From a virus: a DNA stretch of 20,020 bases. Shown here piece after piece: positions 5,345 to 16,374 of this stretch (its first letter is position 1; the number at the start of each line of letters is the position of its first letter). The DNA is taken from positions 1 through 20,020 of the IMG/VR virus record IMGVR_UViG_3300035180_000657; one strand, given 5' to 3'. The notes beneath the pieces were generated by a model. That model did no database searches and had not been told where the DNA came from. It saw nothing but the letters and a program-made list of their open reading frames with translations. A program made the position numbers and the translations under genes.

Positions 5345-6964
5345 ATGCTCCGCAACCCGGCAATCTACCAGTGGCGGCCGGTAGGTCTATCTGATGCGCG
5401 GGATGGCAAGCTGGCGTTCCCCGGCGCTTGCAAACTGCTGACGAACCTGATTCACGATCCGGTCAGCAACAGTATGCTGGCCCCGCGCCCTGCCAGCACG
5501 GTTATCACAACGTTCAGCGGGTTTACGTCGCCCGGCGTTGTGTCTGTCATGCTTTCCGTTGGCACGCGCGTCTTTGGCATGGTTGCCAGCGGGATTTACC
5601 TTGGGTTTGACCAGCCGTTTTGCTACGACACGGCAACTAATGCGTTTGTGCCCATTAGCGGTGTGACCGGCAACCATGTTCCTATAACGCAAGGCACGAG
5701 TGGCGCGTGGACACCCCCTTGCATGGCGGTTGTCGGAAACTACATCGTCATCACGCATCCAGGCTACACGCTGTCCAGCGGCCCAATTGGGACGATTGAC
5801 CTGACGACGCTGGCCTACAGCACGGGCAACATGATGAACGGCATGACCGCCGTGCTGAATGATGTACCGACGTCTGTTGCGCAGTTTTATGGGCGTGCAT
5901 GGTACGCAGTGGGCAACCAAGCCTACTTCAGTGACTCGCTTCTCCCGTTGCGGCAGACCAACGCGGGGCAAGTATTGACGCTTGGCGCAAGCACCGAGCC
6001 GATCACTGTGTTTGTGCCGCAAGGCATTTCAACTGCAACGCAAGGTATTTTGTCTGCGCTGATCGCGTTCAAGGCAAACTCGATTTGGCAGATTACCGGC
6101 GACTGGAACTATGGTGGGTCAACGACCGGAGGCAACCTTGCGCTGAACCAGATCACCGCCAGTGTCGGTTGTTCCGCGCCGCGCACAGCGGTTCCGACTC
6201 CTGCGGGGATCATGTTCATGGCAGCGGACGGGGTTCGCACCATCCCGACGCTGAGTATGGCTGTGACGGAGCCAAACCCTGACGTGGTATATCCGTTCTT
6301 CAACTGCACCCAGCCAACACGCGCCTGCGCGGCCTACAGTGCTGATACGTATCGTATTTCGCTCGATACGGTGACGACAACGGACGTGCTTGGTCGGTTC
6401 GAGTATTGGTTCCCCCTCAAGGTCGGCAAGTGGAATGGCCCACACACGTTCCCCGCGGACGTGATTACCCCACTCGACAACTCGTTCATCGTTGCGGTCA
6501 ACAGCGTCGGTGCAAAGCTGTTTCAGAGCAACGTCTATACTTCCCCAACAGACGTTTTTGTTGAAAACGGTGTGGCGCTGACTGTCAACATGACCAGCAG
6601 CTTGATTGACCCAGACCCGCCGATGGCTGAAAAGTCGTCAGTCGAAATGACGGTTGCAGCAGTAAATGGGCTACAGCCATACACTATACAAGTGTTAGAC
6701 GACCAAGGGCAGCTTATCAACCAAGCAACACTGAGTTCCATAGCTGCTCCAGTCAAATGGGGCGATCTTGGGCTTGTCTGGGGCGCGGCAAATGTTGTGT
6801 GGGGCGCGTTTCCCTACAACTCCACAATCTCGCCGTTGTATTTTTCTGCTCCGCTCGTTTTTCAGACGTGTCAAATCGTCCTTTTTGGAAACGGCGGCCC
6901 GTATTTGCGCTTGGGGCGGGTTAATTTCCGCTATGAGGCACTTCGATACATTGGAGCAAACTGA
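5345..6964 (+). CDS. Tail nozzle / DNA-stabilisation protein (P22 gp10, T7 gp12-like)
   Basis: The 539-residue protein is expected to form the hollow hexameric nozzle of the short tail and to hold packaged DNA in place. It is beta-rich throughout with propeller-like blades. Telling segments are the N-terminal 'P-R-P-A-S' region, GRAWYAVGNQAYFSDSLLP (residues ~183-201), the segment ALIAFKANSIWQITGDWNYG, then LALNQITASVGCSAPRTAVP and GIMFMAADGVRTI. This series recurs in podoviral nozzle or stabilisation proteins as I know them. The ATG directly abuts the adaptor stop with no intervening base, and its own stop (TGA) overlaps the tailspike ATG, so the three are probably translated as a coupled unit. 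The C-terminal ~120 residues are a separate beta domain of unknown contact. Confidence 0.78.
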   Translation: MLRNPAIYQWRPVGLSDARDGKLAFPGACKLLTNLIHDPVSNSMLAPRPASTVITTFSGFTSPGVVSVMLSVGTRVFGMVASGIYLGFDQPFCYDTATNAFVPISGVTGNHVPITQGTSGAWTPPCMAVVGNYIVITHPGYTLSSGPIGTIDLTTLAYSTGNMMNGMTAVLNDVPTSVAQFYGRAWYAVGNQAYFSDSLLPLRQTNAGQVLTLGASTEPITVFVPQGISTATQGILSALIAFKANSIWQITGDWNYGGSTTGGNLALNQITASVGCSAPRTAVPTPAGIMFMAADGVRTIPTLSMAVTEPNPDVVYPFFNCTQPTRACAAYSADTYRISLDTVTTTDVLGRFEYWFPLKVGKWNGPHTFPADVITPLDNSFIVAVNSVGAKLFQSNVYTSPTDVFVENGVALTVNMTSSLIDPDPPMAEKSSVEMTVAAVNGLQPYTIQVLDDQGQLINQATLSSIAAPVKWGDLGLVWGAANVVWGAFPYNSTISPLYFSAPLVFQTCQIVLFGNGGPYLRLGRVNFRYEALRYIGAN

Positions 6965-8655
6965 TGGCTATCATTAACCCTCTAGTCTATACGATCCAAA
7001 ACGGCAACCCGGTAGATGCAACTCCGGTGCAGGCCAATTTTGCGCAGATCGTTCAAGACGTGAACGCAAACGCCGCTCCTGTAGGCGGTAATGCTTCGCA
7101 ACAGTTTCTTGTCGCTCCTGCAACGGTGTCGTCTGCTGCGGTTCCTTTGAACCAAGTTCAGCAGCTTATCGTTGGAGGGGGCGGGGGCGGTGGGGGCCTA
7201 GGGGCGATTGACCCCTCCGCAAAGGCAACGGAAGGGGCTGTTGGGGACAACATCGCCGACGACACTGCCGCATTGCAAAGACTTGTTGCGCGCATTGGGA
7301 CAAACTGGAAGGTCGAGGCAGGAAAATACAAGCTGTCTGGGACGACTGGCGTAGGGGCGTTGCACTTAAGCTATGCAAATGGCGGCATGTACGCATTTGA
7401 CGGCGAGCCGATGCCCGGAGCTATTTACGGTGCGGGCCCGCAGAATAGCATCTTTTGCCCAACGACGACAGGGATGTATGCAATCCAAGCATCTTCAACC
7501 GAAGCGACGTCGGTTATGGAGGTGTGGTATCGCGACTTCTGCATTAGCGGAAGAAACAACATTAACAACGTCAATGGAATGTTCCTTGACGTTGTTGAAA
7601 TGCAAACGCTCGAAAATCTGCGGTTCGAGCAACTGAACACCGGGTTGTACCTCAACAGTGTTGAATACTTAACCCTGCGCAAGTGCCTTTTTGAAGGCAA
7701 CGTCAACGGCATTGTTAGCACCAAAGGGACGAACGGCTTTACACATCTGAACGCTTCGACTTTTCAAGACGTCATTCTTGATCGAAATACTGCCAACGGC
7801 TTGCTGGTGACAGATAACGCAGCTAACCTGACGATTGAAGGTGGCCAAGTAAGCAACAACGGCGTGATGGGCGTTTCTGGAACTGCCGGTCTAAACATCA
7901 CCGTCACCAGCGTAGAAGGGGCGAACGGCGTATCGATTAAGAACGTCTACTTCGAGCTAAACAACGGCGATGCAGACATCAAGATTGTAAACACTGGCAC
8001 TCAAAGGATGACGCACATCATCCAAGGGTGCAATTTCAACCGTGTTAGTAGCACGAACTACACACGAAACAACATTGTTTCGCAAGGCCCTAACACGATT
8101 ATCTTGATTGGTTGCTCGTTTCAGAACTACGGGAGCTATTCTCCAAGTTCATCTAGACCATTCCTTAATGGGGACTCTCAGACGCAATTTGTAGACCTTG
8201 GCTGTTGGTGGGGCAGCGTGCCAGATTACGTTCCGGTGCCAGCGTTCCCGCCGAACCAGATGTATCTTGTTCCTTCGTCGTCCCCAACGCTTTCTTCTTC
8301 GCCGTCCATCGTTCCTATGCAGAAGACGGACTCTTATGGGACGTCGCTATCACCGTATAATGGAGGCGTAAAAGTTTCGCTGCCCGGTTACTATCGAGCG
8401 TACATAAGCCTTCAAGTGAGTGCGGCTGGTGCGGGGTACATTTATGTTGGTGTCGCAGTAAACGGCGCGACGCCCGTCGTTGCCGCAAACTCAGCGTACA
8501 CACCATCCGCGCTAGCGGGCGTCATTATTCAGGCGACAGCGGTCATTCACTTGAACTCAGGAGACGTTGTCTACGTCGGTGGCGAAGCACCTGCGCAGGC
8601 GACGGTTTATCAAACCTCTCCGGCAAGCTGGATGGCGATCGAGGGGCCGATCTAA
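6964..8655 (+). CDS. Tailspike: N-terminal anchor, beta-helix, C1q-like tip
   Basis: A 563-residue receptor-binding protein, probably trimeric. Residues 1-70 form an anchor shared with the fibre at 9175 (31 of 70 identical, no gaps). Residues 71-78 are eight consecutive Gly, a hinge. Residues ~90-125 carry the pectate-lyase-like start of a right-handed beta-helix (DNIADDTAALQRLVARI... VEAGKYKLSG). Residues ~130-415 have short N/G/T-rich strand repeats of the helix (GLYLNSVEYLTLRKCLFEGN). A Ser/Pro-rich linker (~435-450) leads to residues ~465-563, which resemble a C1q/TNF-like jelly roll (GYYRAYISLQVSAAGAGYIY, VIHLNSGDVVYVGG). The host target is likely surface polysaccharide; whether it cleaves it cannot be read. 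The central gene is AT-richer than its neighbours, suggesting exchange. Confidence 0.88.
   Translation: MAIINPLVYTIQNGNPVDATPVQANFAQIVQDVNANAAPVGGNASQQFLVAPATVSSAAVPLNQVQQLIVGGGGGGGGLGAIDPSAKATEGAVGDNIADDTAALQRLVARIGTNWKVEAGKYKLSGTTGVGALHLSYANGGMYAFDGEPMPGAIYGAGPQNSIFCPTTTGMYAIQASSTEATSVMEVWYRDFCISGRNNINNVNGMFLDVVEMQTLENLRFEQLNTGLYLNSVEYLTLRKCLFEGNVNGIVSTKGTNGFTHLNASTFQDVILDRNTANGLLVTDNAANLTIEGGQVSNNGVMGVSGTAGLNITVTSVEGANGVSIKNVYFELNNGDADIKIVNTGTQRMTHIIQGCNFNRVSSTNYTRNNIVSQGPNTIILIGCSFQNYGSYSPSSSRPFLNGDSQTQFVDLGCWWGSVPDYVPVPAFPPNQMYLVPSSSPTLSSSPSIVPMQKTDSYGTSLSPYNGGVKVSLPGYYRAYISLQVSAAGAGYIYVGVAVNGATPVVAANSAYTPSALAGVIIQATAVIHLNSGDVVYVGGEAPAQATVYQTSPASWMAIEGPI
7177..7204 (+). other. Potential G-quadruplex at the tailspike poly-glycine hinge
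   Basis: Four G-runs of 5, 5, 5 and 4 bases (7177-7181, 7183-7187, 7192-7196, 7201-7204) are separated by loops C, CGGT and CCTA. This fits the classical G-quadruplex pattern on the coding strand, so it would also be in the mRNA. It overlaps the eight Gly codons at 7174-7197, and Gly codons are G-rich in any case, so function is not implied. Confidence 0.5.
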
Positions 8656-8662
8656 AGGAGGT
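8655..8662 (+). promoter_or_regulatory. Strong ribosome site for the 41-aa gene
   Basis: AAGGAGGT is a full-length Shine-Dalgarno match. It starts on the last base of the tailspike stop and sits five bases before the ATG at 8668. It is among the strongest in the window and is the main argument that this tiny frame is a real gene. Confidence 0.75.
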
Positions 8663-8667
8663 AGCCA

Positions 8668-8793
8668 ATGAGCAAGTCTGGGGCTAAAATCAACCCTGCC
8701 AACAAGGGCAAGCTGCACAAGACGCCCCCCGTCCCGAAGAACGAGAAAATTCCTATGGCAAGGCTAGAGAAAGCAAAGCGGTGGGCAAAATGA
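8668..8793 (+). CDS. 41-aa basic protein, unknown function
   Basis: A 41-residue, Lys-rich protein. The core reads NKGKLHKTPPVPKNEKIP followed by a short basic helix (RLEKAKRWAK). From memory, many phages encode small proteins with the scheme 'N-K-G-x-L-H/R ... V-x-x-x-x-K/x-I-P ... L-x-K-A', often near structural or lysis genes. I know of no established function. The strong AAGGAGGT site and the four-base ATGA overlap with the next gene support expression. The net charge is strongly positive, so nucleic-acid or acidic-protein contact is possible, but that is a guess. Confidence 0.65.
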   Translation: MSKSGAKINPANKGKLHKTPPVPKNEKIPMARLEKAKRWAK

Positions 8794-8897
8794 TCCTCGA
8801 CTTGCTGGATGTTCTTGCTGTGGCGGTGGTCTTTATTGTGGGCGAGATCGCTTTCCGACGCTACCTAAGACGCCGCTATGGATCACGACAAGATTGA
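8790..8897 (+). CDS. 35-aa single-span membrane protein
   Basis: A 35-residue protein starting in an ATGA overlap with the 41-aa gene and overlapping the next gene by 20 bases. Residues 2-21 are hydrophobic (ILDLLDVLAVAVVFIVGEIA), enough for one membrane helix. An Arg-rich tail (RRYLRRRYGSRQD) should lie in the cytoplasm by the positive-inside rule. It immediately precedes a holin-like gene, so a lysis accessory role such as a holin regulator is reasonable but only inferred from place and topology. It has no Cys lipobox, so it is not an Rz1-type spanin. It could also be a chance frame, but the two overlaps argue for translation coupling. Confidence 0.55.
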   Translation: MILDLLDVLAVAVVFIVGEIAFRRYLRRRYGSRQD

Positions 8898-9165
8898 TTT
8901 CTCGTTTTTTGCTTGGTCGTCCGTCCTCGGCGCGTTGATCGGGCTAGGACAACTTCTCGACTCTGCCGAGCGGCTATCCTGGCGTATCGTTGTTGGGCGC
9001 GCGCTCGTGTCAGCAGGGCTGGCGTCAATCGCCCCGGCACTGCTAACGTGGTTCCCTCAGATGCCGCGTATGGCCGAGTTTGCGTTCGCCGCCATGCTTG
9101 CAAGTTTGGGCACTTCTGCGCTTCAATCTATCGTGAAGCGTCTTTTGATTGGCCGCAACAGTTAA
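8878..9165 (+). CDS. Putative holin (LydA / holin superfamily III-like)
   Basis: A 95-residue membrane protein with three likely spans at about residues 9-27, 36-57 and 65-85, and a basic C-terminus (VKRLLIGRNS). The layout, with a short polar N-terminus, a W-R-x-x-V-G-R-A loop between spans 1 and 2, and a small-residue-rich third span (AAMLASLGTSALQSIV), fits small phage holins of the LydA type. Such holins permeabilise the inner membrane and time lysis. The gene overlaps the 35-aa membrane gene. No endolysin is adjacent; that gene lies 6 kb downstream with its own 3TM holin. The two therefore may act as holin and antiholin or as redundant holins. Family placement is by topology and general pattern only. 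Confidence 0.6.
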   Translation: MDHDKIDFSFFAWSSVLGALIGLGQLLDSAERLSWRIVVGRALVSAGLASIAPALLTWFPQMPRMAEFAFAAMLASLGTSALQSIVKRLLIGRNS

Positions 9166-9174
9166 GGATTTGTC

Positions 9175-10572
9175 ATGGGTGTTGTTCGTCCAGTCCCTTA
9201 CAACATACAAGTTGGCGAGTATATCGACGCAAGCGCGATCACAAAAAATTTCATCCAGCTTGTTGAAGACATAAACGCTAACGTCCTCGCTGCGGGTGGC
9301 AACCCGTCGCAGCCTTTCTTTGTGGCCCCTGCAGTTGACCCCGGTCAGGCAGTAAACTTGGGGCAAGCTAACTCTTTGTACGCCCCGGCTGGAAACTATG
9401 CGGCGCTTAACGGCGACCCTGCGCAAGTATTTGCAGTAGCAAACGCAACGTCGTCAAATCAAGCGGTCAACCTTTCTCAGCTTGGCAGCTACAACCAAGT
9501 CATTGCTTCTTTTGCAACCGGAACGTTGCCGTCTACTTGTTGGGGCGGCGCGGTTCAAGTTCAGCAAAACGCGACAGCTACGCTTCCAGCAACGAACCCG
9601 CCAGCAGGAAGCAAAGTTGTGCTGTTCGGGTTTGGGGGGCCGTTTTCTGTTGCTAGCAACGGCAACCAGTATATTTACTCTCCAGCATTAGGGTTAACCC
9701 CTAGTTCCGGCCCGACGACAGTCACTGTCTCTGATGGTGGCTGGATTGAGCTTACATCGCGTGGCAACGGTGAGTACGACATTACTGGCGGCTCTTTGTT
9801 AGTGTTTCAAAGTGTTGCTCCGGTCTTTACTCAACCGGTCAGTGTGCCCAATGCGGTGTCAAACGGGCAAGCGGTCAACCTCGGTCAAGTCCAAACTCTG
9901 ATAGGTAACAGCGGCAGTAGTTTGCCTGTTACACAACCCATTTCTTCGTTACCTGCTAACTACGACACAAACCAAGTCGTGTTGTTGGCAACGTCAACGC
10001 CGACGACAGGGGTGTCGTTTAGTTCGTCTGACTCGCGTGTTCTTTCTGTAGGCGAAGGGCCAAACGGCCCATTTGTTCGAGCAAACACAAACCCGCTTGA
10101 CCTGACAAGTAACAGTGGGGTTTTGGTGCCCAACGCGGTGACTAGCGCGCACGCACTAAACCTTGGGCAAGCTGATAGTCGTTACCAACAGCGGAATCTA
10201 ATTGTTGAGGCAGGGGCTGCGGGCACGTTGACTAGTAGTGCCTACATTGGAGTCTATGTTAACGCAATGCAGGTCAATGGCTCTGGCGTAGCGGTTACGT
10301 TGCCGGGGAATGGTGTCGGTAGCTACGCAGTTGCCACAGCCACGGCGACCGCCGCACAAACAATCAACGTCCTGAAGAAAGCTGTTGGCTCGACTACCTT
10401 GACTACGGTCGGAACAATTACTTTTGCAGCAGGTGCGTCGTCTGGAACGTTCTCCACAACCTCCGGCGCGGCAGTGACATTCAACCCCGGCGAAGCAATG
10501 TATGTGCAGGTTGGTAGCTCGGCAGATACAACGCTGGCGAACGTGGCAATTTCATTGTTCCTAACCTACTAA
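9175..10572 (+). CDS. Tail fibre with the same anchor as the tailspike
   Basis: A 465-residue fibre protein. Residues 1-70 are homologous to the tailspike anchor, with shared YxIQxG, NFxQxVxDxNAN, GGNxSQxFxVAPA and AVxLxQ patterns. The shaft contains recurring units around 'P-N-A-V-x-x-x-x-A-V/L-N-L-G-Q': QAVNLGQANSLY (near 60), QAVNLSQL (near 100), VPNAVSNGQAVNLGQVQ (near 222) and VPNAVTSAHALNLGQADSRY (near 320). These spaced repeats are typical of trimeric fibre shafts. The C-terminal ~120 residues form a compact beta domain (INVLKKAVGSTTLTTVGTIT; FNPGEAMYVQVGSSADTTLA), probably the receptor-binding tip. Ribosome site AAGGA precedes ATG. It and the tailspike could share or compete for the same attachment sites on the virion. 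Confidence 0.8.
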   Translation: MGVVRPVPYNIQVGEYIDASAITKNFIQLVEDINANVLAAGGNPSQPFFVAPAVDPGQAVNLGQANSLYAPAGNYAALNGDPAQVFAVANATSSNQAVNLSQLGSYNQVIASFATGTLPSTCWGGAVQVQQNATATLPATNPPAGSKVVLFGFGGPFSVASNGNQYIYSPALGLTPSSGPTTVTVSDGGWIELTSRGNGEYDITGGSLLVFQSVAPVFTQPVSVPNAVSNGQAVNLGQVQTLIGNSGSSLPVTQPISSLPANYDTNQVVLLATSTPTTGVSFSSSDSRVLSVGEGPNGPFVRANTNPLDLTSNSGVLVPNAVTSAHALNLGQADSRYQQRNLIVEAGAAGTLTSSAYIGVYVNAMQVNGSGVAVTLPGNGVGSYAVATATATAAQTINVLKKAVGSTTLTTVGTITFAAGASSGTFSTTSGAAVTFNPGEAMYVQVGSSADTTLANVAISLFLTY

Positions 10573-10581
10573 GGAAAAGAA

Positions 10582-11466
10582 ATGCTGATTTCAATTCCTT
10601 GGGGGCTGCGGAGTAGCCAAAGTGTAAAGGTTGGAACGTTTGCTCTGTTTGGCGGCGGGTATAACGGGGGCGATAAAAACACTACATCCGTTTACACCTA
10701 TTCCTCGAACACCGCTGTTGCTGGCGGGAACTTGAGCTACGCAGCGTCTAGTTTAGCCGCCGCAGGCAACAGTACGCTCGGCGTCTTTGGTGGCGGCAGC
10801 GGCCCTGTCAGCACTACATCCGTTTACACCTATTCCTCAAACACCGCTGTTGCTGGCGGGAACTTGAGCTATGCAGTGTATGGTTTGGCTGCTGCAGGCA
10901 ACAGCACGCTTGGCGTATTTGGTGGCGGTGCTGGCCCTGTCAGCACTACATCCGTTTACACCTATTCCTCGAACACCGCTGTTGCTGGCGGGAACTTGAG
11001 CTACGCAGCGTCTAGTTTAGCCGCCGCAGGCAACAGTACGCTCGGCGTCTTTGGTGGCGGCAGCGGCCCTGTCAGCACTACATCCGTTTACACCTATTCC
11101 TCAAACACCGCCGCTGCTGGCGGGAACTTGAGCTACGCAGCGTATGGTTTGGCCGCCGCAGGCAACAGCACGCTCGGCGTTTTTGGCGGCGGGAATAACG
11201 GGGGCGCTAAAAACACTACATCCGTTTACACGTATTCCTCGAACACCGCTGCTGCTGGCGGGAACTTGAGCTACTCGGCGTATTATTTAGCTGCCGCAGG
11301 CAACAGCACGCTCGGCGTCTTTGGCGGAGGGTATACCGGCTCCAGCCCATTTAATACTACATCCGTTTACACGTATTCCTCGAACACCGCCGCTGCTGGC
11401 GGGAACTTGAGCTACGCGGCGTATAGTTTGGCTGCCTGTTCGCCTAACCCCGGAGTAAACTGGTAA
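10582..11466 (+). CDS. Kelch-like six-repeat beta-propeller protein, probable adhesin
   Basis: A 294-residue protein made almost wholly of six repeats (residues 34-77, 78-121, 122-165, 166-211, 212-258, 259-294) of 44, 44, 44, 46, 47 and a shortened last unit. Each reads TTSVYTYSSNT, then A-G-G-N-L-S-Y-x-x-x-x-L-A-A-A-G-N-S-T-L-G-V-F-G-G-G. The hydrophobic-plus-GG strand and the V-Y-T-Y strand match kelch blades, though the usual Trp is missing. The N-terminal strand GTFALFGGG (18-26) supplies exactly the segment the last repeat lacks, which is how propellers close. Ribosome site AAGGAAAAG. Placed after the fibre gene, it is probably a receptor-binding or decoration protein; no anchor domain is seen, so how it joins the virion is open. 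Confidence 0.78.
   Translation: MLISIPWGLRSSQSVKVGTFALFGGGYNGGDKNTTSVYTYSSNTAVAGGNLSYAASSLAAAGNSTLGVFGGGSGPVSTTSVYTYSSNTAVAGGNLSYAVYGLAAAGNSTLGVFGGGAGPVSTTSVYTYSSNTAVAGGNLSYAASSLAAAGNSTLGVFGGGSGPVSTTSVYTYSSNTAAAGGNLSYAAYGLAAAGNSTLGVFGGGNNGGAKNTTSVYTYSSNTAAAGGNLSYSAYYLAAAGNSTLGVFGGGYTGSSPFNTTSVYTYSSNTAAAGGNLSYAAYSLAACSPNPGVNW
10681..11436 (+). repeat. Six tandem 132-141 bp repeats coding for the propeller
   Basis: The marker ACTACATCCGTTTACAC recurs at 10681, 10813, 10945, 11077, 11215 and 11356, giving periods of 132, 132, 132, 138 and 141 bases. Copies 1 (10681-10812) and 3 (10945-11076) are identical over all 132 bases while copy 2 differs from both, so recent gene conversion or a two-unit duplication is likely. 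Copies 4 and 5 carry longer, different loops between blades. The last copy breaks off at 11436. Confidence 0.95.
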
Positions 11467-14031: not shown

Positions 14032-15378
14032 ATGACCGCTGCCGCGCAGATCAACGGCTGGCTCAATGCGCGGTACATCAAACGCAGCGCCGCGCAGATC
14101 TACGCGCGCATTGACTGGGGCGACCTAGACAAAACAGAGGCGCAGGTTTGGGGCGCGTGGATATTCGGCGCGGCCGGCAGCGGCGTTTCCGCAGCCGCTG
14201 CTCAGACTGACGCCGCAGACGTTCAGGCCGCGTCCGGCACAGTGCCTGCATCTGCCCAGGCTGCTCAGACTGACGCCGCAGACGTTCAGGCCGCGTCCGG
14301 CACAGTGCCTGCATCTGCCCAGGCCGCTCAGACTGACGCCGCAGACGCTCAGGCCGCGTCCGGCACGCTGACTGTCGTCGCCCAGGCCGCTCAGACTGAC
14401 GCCGCAGACGCTCAGGTCGCGTCCGGCACGCTGACTGTCGTCGCCCAGGCCGCTCAGACTGACGCCGCAGACGCTCAGGCCGCGTCCGGCACGCTGACCG
14501 TCGTCGCCCAGGCCGCTCAGGCTGACGCCGCAGACGCTCAGGTCGCGTCCGGCACGCCGACTGTCGTCGCCCAGGCCGCTCAGACTGACGCCGCAGACGC
14601 TCAGGCCGCGTCCGGCACGCTGACCGTCGTCGCCCAGGCCGCTCAGGCTGACGCCGCAGACGCTCAGGTCGCGTCCGGCACGCTGACTGTCGTCGCCCAG
14701 GCTGCTCAGGCGGACGCCGCAGACGCTCAGGTCGCGTCCGGCACGCTGCCTGTGTCCGCCCAGGCTGCTCAGGCGGACGCCGCAGACACGCAGGTTACAA
14801 GCGGAGTTCTCGGCATCAGCGTTGTTGCGGTGCAGGTGGACGACACGGATACGCAATCCGCGCTGGTTGTTACTAGTCAGCCTATTGTTATTACGGCGGT
14901 ACAAGTCAACGGCGCTGACGTTCAAATTGCGTCCATCAACTCCGGCTACAGCACACTGAACGCGGCATACTTATACGCTGCGCAACAAGCTGCGACACCG
15001 CAGTTCTATACTTCGTCACCCCCGCCGCAAGCGAACATAGCGGTCTATACGCAGTCCAGTACGTTCGCCGTCCCGGCGTATTCCAATTACTTCCTCGTGA
15101 GCGCAACGGCTGCGGGCGGTTCACCTTATGGCGCAGCAGGGCGGCAAACGTCACGGCAACAGTTGCCTGTCGTTGCTGGCGACATGCTGACAGTATCTAT
15201 CTCGCCAAACGTCACTGTTCAGCGTGGGAGCCAAACACTGTTGTCGTTGCTGGACGGCGCGGCGTATGCAAAAGGCACGCAAGGCGGCCTACCGCAAGAC
15301 TCTGGAATTGTAGGGCTTGGTAGTGGAGTCGATGAGGGCGAGCCATTTCCAGCGGCGCTCGTTTTTATTTGGAATTGA
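14032..15378 (+). CDS. Repeat-rich tail-fibre-like protein
   Basis: A 448-residue protein in three parts. Residues 1-55 are a compact start with Trp and Tyr (INGWLNARYIKRSAAQIYAR). Residues ~56-265 are ten tandem 21-residue units of the form A-A-Q-x-D-A-A-D-x-Q-x-x-S-G-T-x-x-V-x-A-Q, decaying into looser copies (VQVDDTDTQ, VQVNGADVQ) to about residue 305. Residues ~340-448 resemble the Gly-rich tips of phage fibres: FAVPAYSNYFLVSATAAGG, later VVAGDMLTVSISPNVTV, ending ALVFIWN. The repeat block could be a rigid beta-solenoid rod or extended spacer holding the tip away from the particle. Role as fibre is inferred from this layout. Start ATG 14032 follows AAGG (14021-14024). Confidence 0.75.
   Translation: MTAAAQINGWLNARYIKRSAAQIYARIDWGDLDKTEAQVWGAWIFGAAGSGVSAAAAQTDAADVQAASGTVPASAQAAQTDAADVQAASGTVPASAQAAQTDAADAQAASGTLTVVAQAAQTDAADAQVASGTLTVVAQAAQTDAADAQAASGTLTVVAQAAQADAADAQVASGTPTVVAQAAQTDAADAQAASGTLTVVAQAAQADAADAQVASGTLTVVAQAAQADAADAQVASGTLPVSAQAAQADAADTQVTSGVLGISVVAVQVDDTDTQSALVVTSQPIVITAVQVNGADVQIASINSGYSTLNAAYLYAAQQAATPQFYTSSPPPQANIAVYTQSSTFAVPAYSNYFLVSATAAGGSPYGAAGRQTSRQQLPVVAGDMLTVSISPNVTVQRGSQTLLSLLDGAAYAKGTQGGLPQDSGIVGLGSGVDEGEPFPAALVFIWN
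14201..14830 (+). repeat. Ten tandem 63-bp repeats
   Basis: Units beginning CTCAG(A/G)CTGACGCCGCAGAC start at 14201 and every 63 bases through 14768. The first two differ by one base. Units 5+6 (14453-14578) and 7+8 (14579-14704) differ at only two of 126 positions, so a two-unit block was duplicated recently. The tenth unit diverges after 14787. Period is a multiple of three, so copy number can change without breaking the frame. Confidence 0.95.
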
Positions 15379-15379
15379 T

Positions 15380-15865
15380 ATGTCGACCTTCGACGATGCG
15401 TTTACCGCCCTCATCGGCAACGAGGGGGGCTATAGCAACAACCCCGCCGACCCTGGCGGCGAGACGATGTGGGGCATCACGCAACGCGTAGCGCGTGCGT
15501 ATGGCTACACAGGCGCGATGAAGGATTTGCCGTTGGAGATGGCGAAGGCTATCGCCAAGGCGAAATACTGGGACACCTACTCGTGCGATAGCTTCGATCC
15601 GCGCATTGCGTTCCAAGTGTTTGATGCGGCGTATAATGGCGGCCAGCCAGCCCTATGGCTACAAAAAGCAGTCGGCGTGCCGGAGGACGGCATCATTGGC
15701 CCTGTAACGATTGCCGCCGTGAGCGCTGCCGACCCGTTGCAAGTCGTCATGCGGTTCAATAGCTACCGGCTAAGTTACTTGACATCGCTTAGTTCGTGGC
15801 AGACATTCGGGCGTGGGTGGGCGAACCGGATTGCACGCAATCTTTTACTAGGAGCGCAACGATGA
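15380..15865 (+). CDS. Endolysin, GH108 muramidase with C-terminal PG-binding domain
   Basis: A 161-residue cell-wall hydrolase that cuts the peptidoglycan glycan chain at the end of infection. The GH108 signature NEGGYSNNPADPGGETMWGI is at residues 14-33, with Glu15 the expected catalytic residue. Residues ~77-155 match the type-3 peptidoglycan-binding domain that usually follows (FQVFDAAYNGG... LQKAVGVPEDGIIGP). Length is normal for the family. No signal peptide or anchor is seen, so release needs a holin, and a 3TM holin overlaps its stop (ATGA). The start at 15380 is chosen over ATG 15317 because it follows the previous stop by one base and begins where the family begins; its ribosome site (GGA near 15371) is weak, suggesting coupled translation. 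Confidence 0.93.
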   Translation: MSTFDDAFTALIGNEGGYSNNPADPGGETMWGITQRVARAYGYTGAMKDLPLEMAKAIAKAKYWDTYSCDSFDPRIAFQVFDAAYNGGQPALWLQKAVGVPEDGIIGPVTIAAVSAADPLQVVMRFNSYRLSYLTSLSSWQTFGRGWANRIARNLLLGAQR

Positions 15866-16374
15866 GCCTAACATGGGCAGATGTTGGACGCGCAGTTGGC
15901 CGCGTTGCGCCGATTCTCGGCACGGCGCTTGGCGGCCCTGCGGGTGCCGTAGTGGGCAGCCTGATCGCTTCGGCGCTTGGGACGAACAATGACCCCGCGT
16001 CGGTGAATGCCGCCATCGCCGCAGACCCGACCAACGCGGCCAAAATCATTCAGCTTCAGGCGGAGCACGAAGAAGTCCTCGCCAAGATGAATCTGGATTA
16101 TGAGGCTGCGGTCGTCAACGCCCAGGCGGGCGACATTCAGGCCGAAGCGAAGTCAGAGTCCTGGCTCGCGGCGAACTGGCGGCCTATCCTGATGTTGTCG
16201 TTTACAGCGATCATCGTTGTGAACTACCTTGTGTTGCCTGTTGCGCAGTGGTTTGGAGTGACCGAACCGCCCTTGACGCTGCCGCCAGATATGTGGGCAC
16301 TGTTAAAAATCGGCGTAGGCGGGTATATTGTGGGCAGGTCTGGAGAAAAAATTGCACGGAGCTTAAACCCATGA
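15862..16374 (+). CDS. Holin of the 3TM (gene-transfer-agent release) family
   Basis: A 170-residue membrane protein. An N-terminal Gly/Ala-rich hydrophobic segment (residues ~12-40, PILGTALGGPAGAVVGSLIA) is followed by a long charged helix (~60-98). Then come the family core SWLAANWRPILMLSFTAIIV (100-119) and a last span with LPPDMWALLKIGVGGYIVGR (140-159). The W-L-A-A-N-W-R-P motif and the G-G-Y-I-V-G-R-S-G-E-K end are what I know of 3TM holins. It forms inner-membrane lesions that let the endolysin out. Start 15862 has AGGAG at 15850-15854 and lies in an ATGA overlap with the endolysin, preferred over ATG 15796. The next gene also overlaps its stop by ATGA, giving a tight three-gene cassette. 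Confidence 0.88.
   Translation: MSLTWADVGRAVGRVAPILGTALGGPAGAVVGSLIASALGTNNDPASVNAAIAADPTNAAKIIQLQAEHEEVLAKMNLDYEAAVVNAQAGDIQAEAKSESWLAANWRPILMLSFTAIIVVNYLVLPVAQWFGVTEPPLTLPPDMWALLKIGVGGYIVGRSGEKIARSLNP

Follow-up and report, generated by a model that had tools for sequence, protein, structure and literature searches.

The window analysed here, the 20,020-base virus record IMGVR_UViG_3300035180_000657 of IMG/VR, contains a tailspike gene (6964..8655) and a tail fibre gene (9175..10572) whose products begin with the same short N-terminal head, and in relatives of the window this head is found at the start of the gene that follows the tail nozzle gene. The two proteins fit the description of modular receptor-binding proteins, which have a conserved N-terminal anchor and unrelated distal parts. 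We consider it quite probable that the head is a docking plug by which receptor-binding trimers are fixed to a loop of three tryptophans (Trp) in the nozzle (gene 5345..6961), and that spike and fibre share one type of dock. This one socket would probably accept a variety of host-binding parts. The nozzle, spike, holin and fibre genes of the window, with their parts named below, lie on the plus strand.

The shared head, the repeat and the exchangeable distal parts

An earlier note on this DNA, made from the sequence alone, had claimed that the genes at 6964 and 9175 share a 70-residue N-terminal anchor. The likeness is real: the gap-free alignment of residues 1-70 holds 31 identities, including both motifs that had been quoted (NFxQxVxDxNAN and GGNxSQxFxVAPA), and the best 70-residue stretches on other diagonals hold 18-19 only. 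Moreover, local alignment of the first 80 residues with BLOSUM62 scores 161, whereas 1000 shuffles averaged 31.6 (s.d. 6.4) and reached 62 at most. The size of the anchor has to be corrected, as it is composed of a head of about 38 residues and one copy of a repeat of about 30 amino acids, for which profile hidden Markov models (HMMs) of 38 and 26 columns, respectively, were built on the relatives. In the spike, a protein of 563 amino acids, the head occupies residues 1-38 (6964..7077; i-E 3.5e-22) and is of the type called slot-1 in the tree discussed below; in the fibre, of 465 amino acids, it also occupies residues 1-38 (9175..9288; i-E 3e-20) and is of a divergent type, called gamma.

The repeat HMM recognised one copy in the spike (about residues 39-68, 7078..7167) and four in the fibre, at residues 39-64 (9289..9366) and 77-102 (9403..9480) and, as cores, at residues 223-238 (9841..9888) and 317-332 (10123..10170), where they separate small domains. 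Eight copies are present in an 896-amino-acid fibre of a T4-like contig, and two of the loci compared here (numbered with the letter L), L012 and L014, have several copies without a head. Half of the former anchor thus serves as a joint between the modules of fibres. The statement that the two proteins are unrelated beyond the anchor is true for their domains, although what was taken for its second half is itself a repeat that recurs in the fibre.

Across the loci scanned, the head sits at protein N-termini, and its consensus consists of a presumed hydrophobic strand, M-x-I-I-x-x-L-P-Y-T-I-x-N-G, followed by a presumed helix, DAxxVxxNFxxIVxxVNAN. Scans of the proteins of the window and its relatives with Pfam and PHROGs listed no family covering residues 1-38, the head profile found nothing convincing among solved structures (best E 0.63), and tblastn against the phage collection at E<=10 gave no match to it. 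The repeat matched the 'short tail fiber gp92' of 9zd7 (E 0.0018).

Behind the head and the repeat, the spike continues with a Gly linker and a putative beta-helix-type part. It has homology to phrog_17420 (tail protein, E 6.4e-24), and its residues 213-416 match the Sf11 tailspike gp13 (9occ, E 4.8e-23); the beta-helix signal comes from this sequence match and a weak match to NosD, the AlphaFold model of the spike being poor (predicted local distance difference test, pLDDT, 48) and not used. The C-terminal domain of the fibre is fibre-like, with residues 373-460 matching phrog_7049 (tail fiber, E 7.9e-5), and the fibre gave no match to solved structures or, by tblastn, to the phage collection.

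The recurrence of the anchor with different C-termini, which had been expected, was found. Among 43 cluster representatives the median identity of the heads, taken over 40 positions, is 0.50, and the C-terminal parts, compared pairwise with a likeness cut-off of E<=1e-3, fall into 12 single-linkage groups, with 86 of the 903 pairs alike. The domains behind the heads include Peptidase_S74, Gly_rich_2 and beta-helix, and a Collar domain is found in L056, a head-bearing relative outside the first nozzle set described below. Near-identical backbones can go with unrelated spike tails. In L025, for example, the major capsid protein shares 97% identity with that of the window, the adaptor 91% and the nozzle 86%, and the spike matches at residues 1-62 only; the distal part has therefore been replaced behind the head. 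The idea of a docking module with interchangeable receptor-binding parts is thus upheld by the unrelated C-termini and by the linkage to the nozzle; the anchor is shorter than 70 residues, and docking itself is what we infer from these data.

The nozzle, its three-tryptophan loop and the gene that follows it

The 539-amino-acid product of the gene at 5345..6961 has no Pfam match above the cut-off. Judged by the fold of its AlphaFold2 model (40-row alignment, mean pLDDT 84.3) it is a podovirus tail nozzle of the P22 gp10, SU10 gp17 and T7 gp12 fold. The best Foldseek matches of the model in the PDB are podovirus tail nozzles, and VIA-align superposed it on the SU10 nozzle 7z4b_DW with Z 24.3 (root mean square deviation 2.8, 448 residues aligned), on Pa223 9nwi_Y with Z 25.7 and on P22 gp10 with Z 24.5. 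With tblastn, neither this nozzle nor that of a relative matched the phage collection.

Towards the C-terminus the nozzle has three tandem WG-type repeats (6758..6802) containing W472, W479 and W486, with a spacing of 7/7, and this stretch is the putative fibre dock loop; it is of low confidence in the model (pLDDT 54 and 53 in the blocks of 471-490). Trp stands at each of the three positions in 81 of the 85 nozzles aligned; the remaining four are the truncated L082 and L116, L096, which has Tyr at all three positions, and L120, in which the loop is missing. The triad is present in the last 170 amino acids of 98 of 101 nozzle clusters (90% identity, from both nozzle searches, and not phylogenetically independent), whereas 0 of 201 control windows taken from these proteins have it. 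When 17 proteins of the window were scanned it was the sole triad, with none in the spike, the fibre or the adaptor. In L103 and L126 the loop is enlarged to six Trp, as if two triads stood in tandem.

Searches with the spike, the fibre and two head alignments recovered 6, 13, 18 and 33 loci. A further search was started from the nozzle alone, and its best 80 of 313 stretches form the first nozzle set; in 5 of these 80 loci the sequence continues for less than 240 bases beyond the nozzle. The other 75 have room, and in 73 of them the head is at the start of the next gene, so the anchor is kept in homologues, the opposite of the outcome that the earlier note had named as refuting it. At least two heads occur in 22 of the 80 loci, and in these loci no head was found ahead of the nozzle or on the opposite strand. 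The two exceptions are L120 and L123, the latter with the triad kept and a head 6.8 kb downstream. In bacterial genome loci found with the nozzle the head is in the next gene in all five (three Paraburkholderia, an uncultured beta proteobacterium and an uncultured Methylococcaceae bacterium), which together with the window brings the total to 79 of 81 loci and 43 of 45 nozzle clusters (90% identity). The head alignment search of bacterial genome contigs gave no relative among 7 pattern hits.

A second nozzle search, of which the best 80 of 455 stretches were taken, overlaps the first set (L175/L113 and L187/L118, for example, are the same contigs). All of its 69 loci with room have the triad; the head is in the next gene in 57 and further downstream in 10, and two have no HMM match. 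Among the loci without an adjacent head, several first genes open with a signal-peptide-like stretch and no recognised head.

Close relatives retain both the spike and the fibre genes, and most contigs near the window hold two head-bearing genes, so that the sharing of one head by two proteins is common in its clade. L001 has three such genes; the third (L001:7701-8189, 162 amino acids, with a weak H_lectin match) is placed between the holin and the fibre and is not present in the window.

The lineage of L120 lacks both elements. A search with the L120 nozzle found seven loci, six of them with downstream sequence; the triad loop is absent in 7/7, and the next genes of the six gave no head match (best E 1.4). 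These genes begin with MATQVxWRRGTHAQV, and that of L120 is Mtd_N by Pfam (E 7.7e-7). The loopless nozzles of L149-L155 have C-termini of short aromatic repeats (DYG or DWG, DWG, DF), which are perhaps a different socket for an Mtd_N-type fibre. By these sequences, socket and plug change together, as seen in one lineage.

Proposed docking and its alternatives

Such a dock is described for phage SU10: its nozzle has a fibre dock loop with W839, W847 and W857 in a pseudo-threefold arrangement, and each of these Trp is in contact with Ile24 in one of the chains of the short-fibre trimer (PMC9509320). By analogy, each nozzle subunit of the window phage would bear one loop of three tandem Trp-containing repeats, and each Trp would grip one chain of a fibre trimer by its hydrophobic N-terminal strand; the helix behind this strand would begin the trimeric stalk, and the repeat that follows would be the joint to any distal module. 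The window has two genes with the head, that of the spike adjoining the nozzle gene and that of the fibre after the holin gene, and the trimers of both would most likely sit on the same kind of dock, giving a virion with one of them or a mixture of both. The physical contact, the trimeric state, the sharing of the dock and the presence of the two proteins in virions are what we infer.

The earlier note had left it between equivalent sites for both proteins and the docking of one on the other. Equivalent or competing sites are favoured, because there is one triad and one dock loop per nozzle subunit, and it is the sole triad found, which is an argument short of proof. A branched apparatus with the fibre on the spike or the reverse, of the G7C/K1-5 type, seems very unlikely to us. 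It would suit the two receptor-binding genes in one phage, and branching is described for Klebsiella phages (PMC6872550), but spike and fibre lack a Trp triad, and both begin with the head that in other loci comes after the nozzle. A gp10-like docking domain was not seen in either protein by the Pfam scan, which is a weak test.

It is possible, if rather doubtful, that the spike with its slot-1 head is on the nozzle loop and that the fibre, with the divergent head, is docked elsewhere, and this is the main rival to a shared dock. In the head tree the first-gene heads of the clade of the window cluster (7 of 8 with support 99/94, all 8 with 65/88), and the second-gene gamma heads, including that of the window fibre, form a separate clade (98/99), and therefore the paralogues keep distinct types. 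This tree is built on 38 columns and poorly resolved, with 40 of 65 inner branches open and the beta heads not in one clade. SU10 also offers a precedent, having its long fibres on the adaptor and its short fibres on the nozzle (PMC9509320). Against separate docks, the gamma head retains the hydrophobic, the G-x3-DA and the NFxQxVxDxNAN positions, and neither the adaptor nor any other of the window proteins scanned offers a second triad.

Several observations weigh against the docking explanation as a whole. The heads of the window spike and fibre are just 42% identical, a value that also suits two docks. When the head and the nozzle were compared with SU10 gp16 and gp17 by hhalign no sequence similarity was detected (probability 0.1; head against gp16, 0.13), and therefore we say that the system works like that of SU10 and not that it is the same; the dock is an analogy from fold and triad. 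The common absence of triad and head counts as one event, as it is confined to one lineage. In addition, signal peptides precede the heads of many relatives, which is difficult to reconcile with simple docking in the cytoplasm there. Finally, the T4-like contig 3300005573_000057 (140 kb; families of the T4 neck, the sheath stabiliser and the terminase are found in the first 9 kb) has two head-bearing genes and no nozzle or dock-loop match, so that the head either can have another role there or is a passenger.

This contig and the loci L055-L061, which have the head in fibres (a Collar domain was seen for L056 alone) and no backbone gene of the window in the stretch examined, would agree with the head being a generic trimer-starting element of fibres and not a nozzle-specific plug. 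We regard this as unlikely, given the strict place of the head after the nozzle gene and its absence together with the Trp loop. Moreover, fibre modules like those of the window stand behind other N-termini in L012, L014 and L033, and trimer building therefore does not need this head.

On the T4-like contig one of the two head copies looks disrupted by eye. Trp triads occur there in 5 of 155 open reading frames (ORFs) of at least 150 amino acids, none resembling the WG loop by eye, and they were taken as background. The fibre blocks of its loci L033 and L017 are 87-90% identical in DNA to that of the short-tailed L026, including the head and a small downstream gene, which means that receptor-binding blocks pass between phages with short tails and T4-like ones. 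The first of these T4-like regions is also present, at 99.98%, on a second contig, L016. Beside the fibre genes lies a transposon-like gene of 396 amino acids (L033:3830-5020), which we take by eye to be of the TnpB/OrfB type.

With respect to the signal peptides, the head is present in 84 of 96 first genes (cluster representatives of both nozzle sets), and by a home-made rule 42 of these 84 have a Sec-like signal peptide ahead of it and 42 do not. The stretch ends in an AxA-type site, the cleavage site by eye being directly before the head, and the start codon of these genes often overlaps the nozzle stop. Loci of this form include L113, L118, L161, L171, L183, L198 and L233. The rule flagged 45 of the 96 first genes, 0 of 101 nozzles and 34 of 245 upstream long open frames, a control that includes spurious frames and many possible starts. 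A Cys pair is found in the head of 25 of the 42 with a signal peptide and of 0 of the 42 without (Fisher p 3e-10); even with a home-made rule and a mixed control, this association argues for the export being real. Of ten signal-peptide head proteins examined, eight match the Phage Tail Collar family, seven of them above the Pfam cut-off. We suggest, very tentatively, that many relatives export their fibres to the periplasm, where a disulfide would form in the head and the nozzle would be plugged only at lysis, and that the window phage has the cytoplasmic form.

Gene surroundings and comparison with known systems

The genes of the window are arranged in the order portal, scaffold-like, major capsid, adaptor, nozzle, spike, holin, fibre and kelch-like protein, followed by a GH108 lysozyme and a second holin. 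The portal and the adaptor match SU10_portal (E 2.8e-11) and SU10_adaptor (E 2.7e-15). The two holin-type genes are distinct, the one between spike and fibre (8878..9165) being a Phage_holin_3_2 (Pfam, E 2.5e-12) and the other (15796-16374) a GTA_holin_3TM. The kelch-like protein (10582-11466, 294 amino acids, Kelch_3 E 1.3e-10) is made of near-identical repeats, is 77-82% identical in close relatives and is possibly another surface-binding propeller. The gene at 14032-15378 encodes a protein of many tandem Ala-rich units (AQAAQTDAADAQxASGTL). Megablast of the whole window against the phage collection gave no match; the capsid protein alone matched, in 33 records, all with less than 60% identity.

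Exchangeable receptor-binding proteins on a common anchor are a known kind of system. The scans made with Pfam and PHROGs gave no family for the head, and the combination of this head with a Trp-triad socket was not met in the literature search, which at the level of titles and the beginnings of abstracts held nothing recognisable about the head, about an export signal of nozzle-adjacent fibres or about the Trp triad beyond SU10. Plug and socket can both be read from the sequence in a large group of short-tailed phages, uncultured and associated with Burkholderiales, and therefore the nozzle can serve as the starting point for finding their receptor-binding genes, also those with unrecognisable distal parts. 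This also gives a testable form to a general question, how one nozzle subunit holds a threefold fibre, for which a socket of three internal repeats is the suggested answer.

Among the closest known systems is SU10, with gp16 docked on gp17, which is alike in the nozzle fold and in the three Trp of one loop towards the C-terminus, the loops not being aligned residue by residue. Its short fibre is trimeric with a hydrophobic N-terminus (PMC9509320), and the head of the window likewise starts with a hydrophobic stretch. The two systems differ in that no sequence similarity was detected in fibre or nozzle, in the spacing of the Trp (8/10 in SU10, 7/7 in the window) and in gene order, since the short-fibre gene of SU10 precedes the nozzle gene whereas the spike gene of the window follows it. 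The anchored and anchor-branched receptor-binding proteins of Klebsiella podoviruses likewise have a conserved N-terminus and an exchangeable distal part, with one or two per phage; in them the short peptide of the second protein is a different one, and this protein docks on a T4gp10-like domain, while in the window both proteins have the same head (PMC6872550). In Sf11, the P22-like tailspike gp13 resembles the putative beta-helix part of the window spike (PMC12724387), but Sf11 is a siphophage in which the N-terminal helices of the spike attach to a helix of the distal tail protein, and the window spike is similar to gp13 outside the N-terminus. Finally, the Mtd_N domain of the major tropism determinant fills the same gene slot in the L120 lineage; it is unrelated in sequence to the head, and the nozzle there is without the Trp loop.

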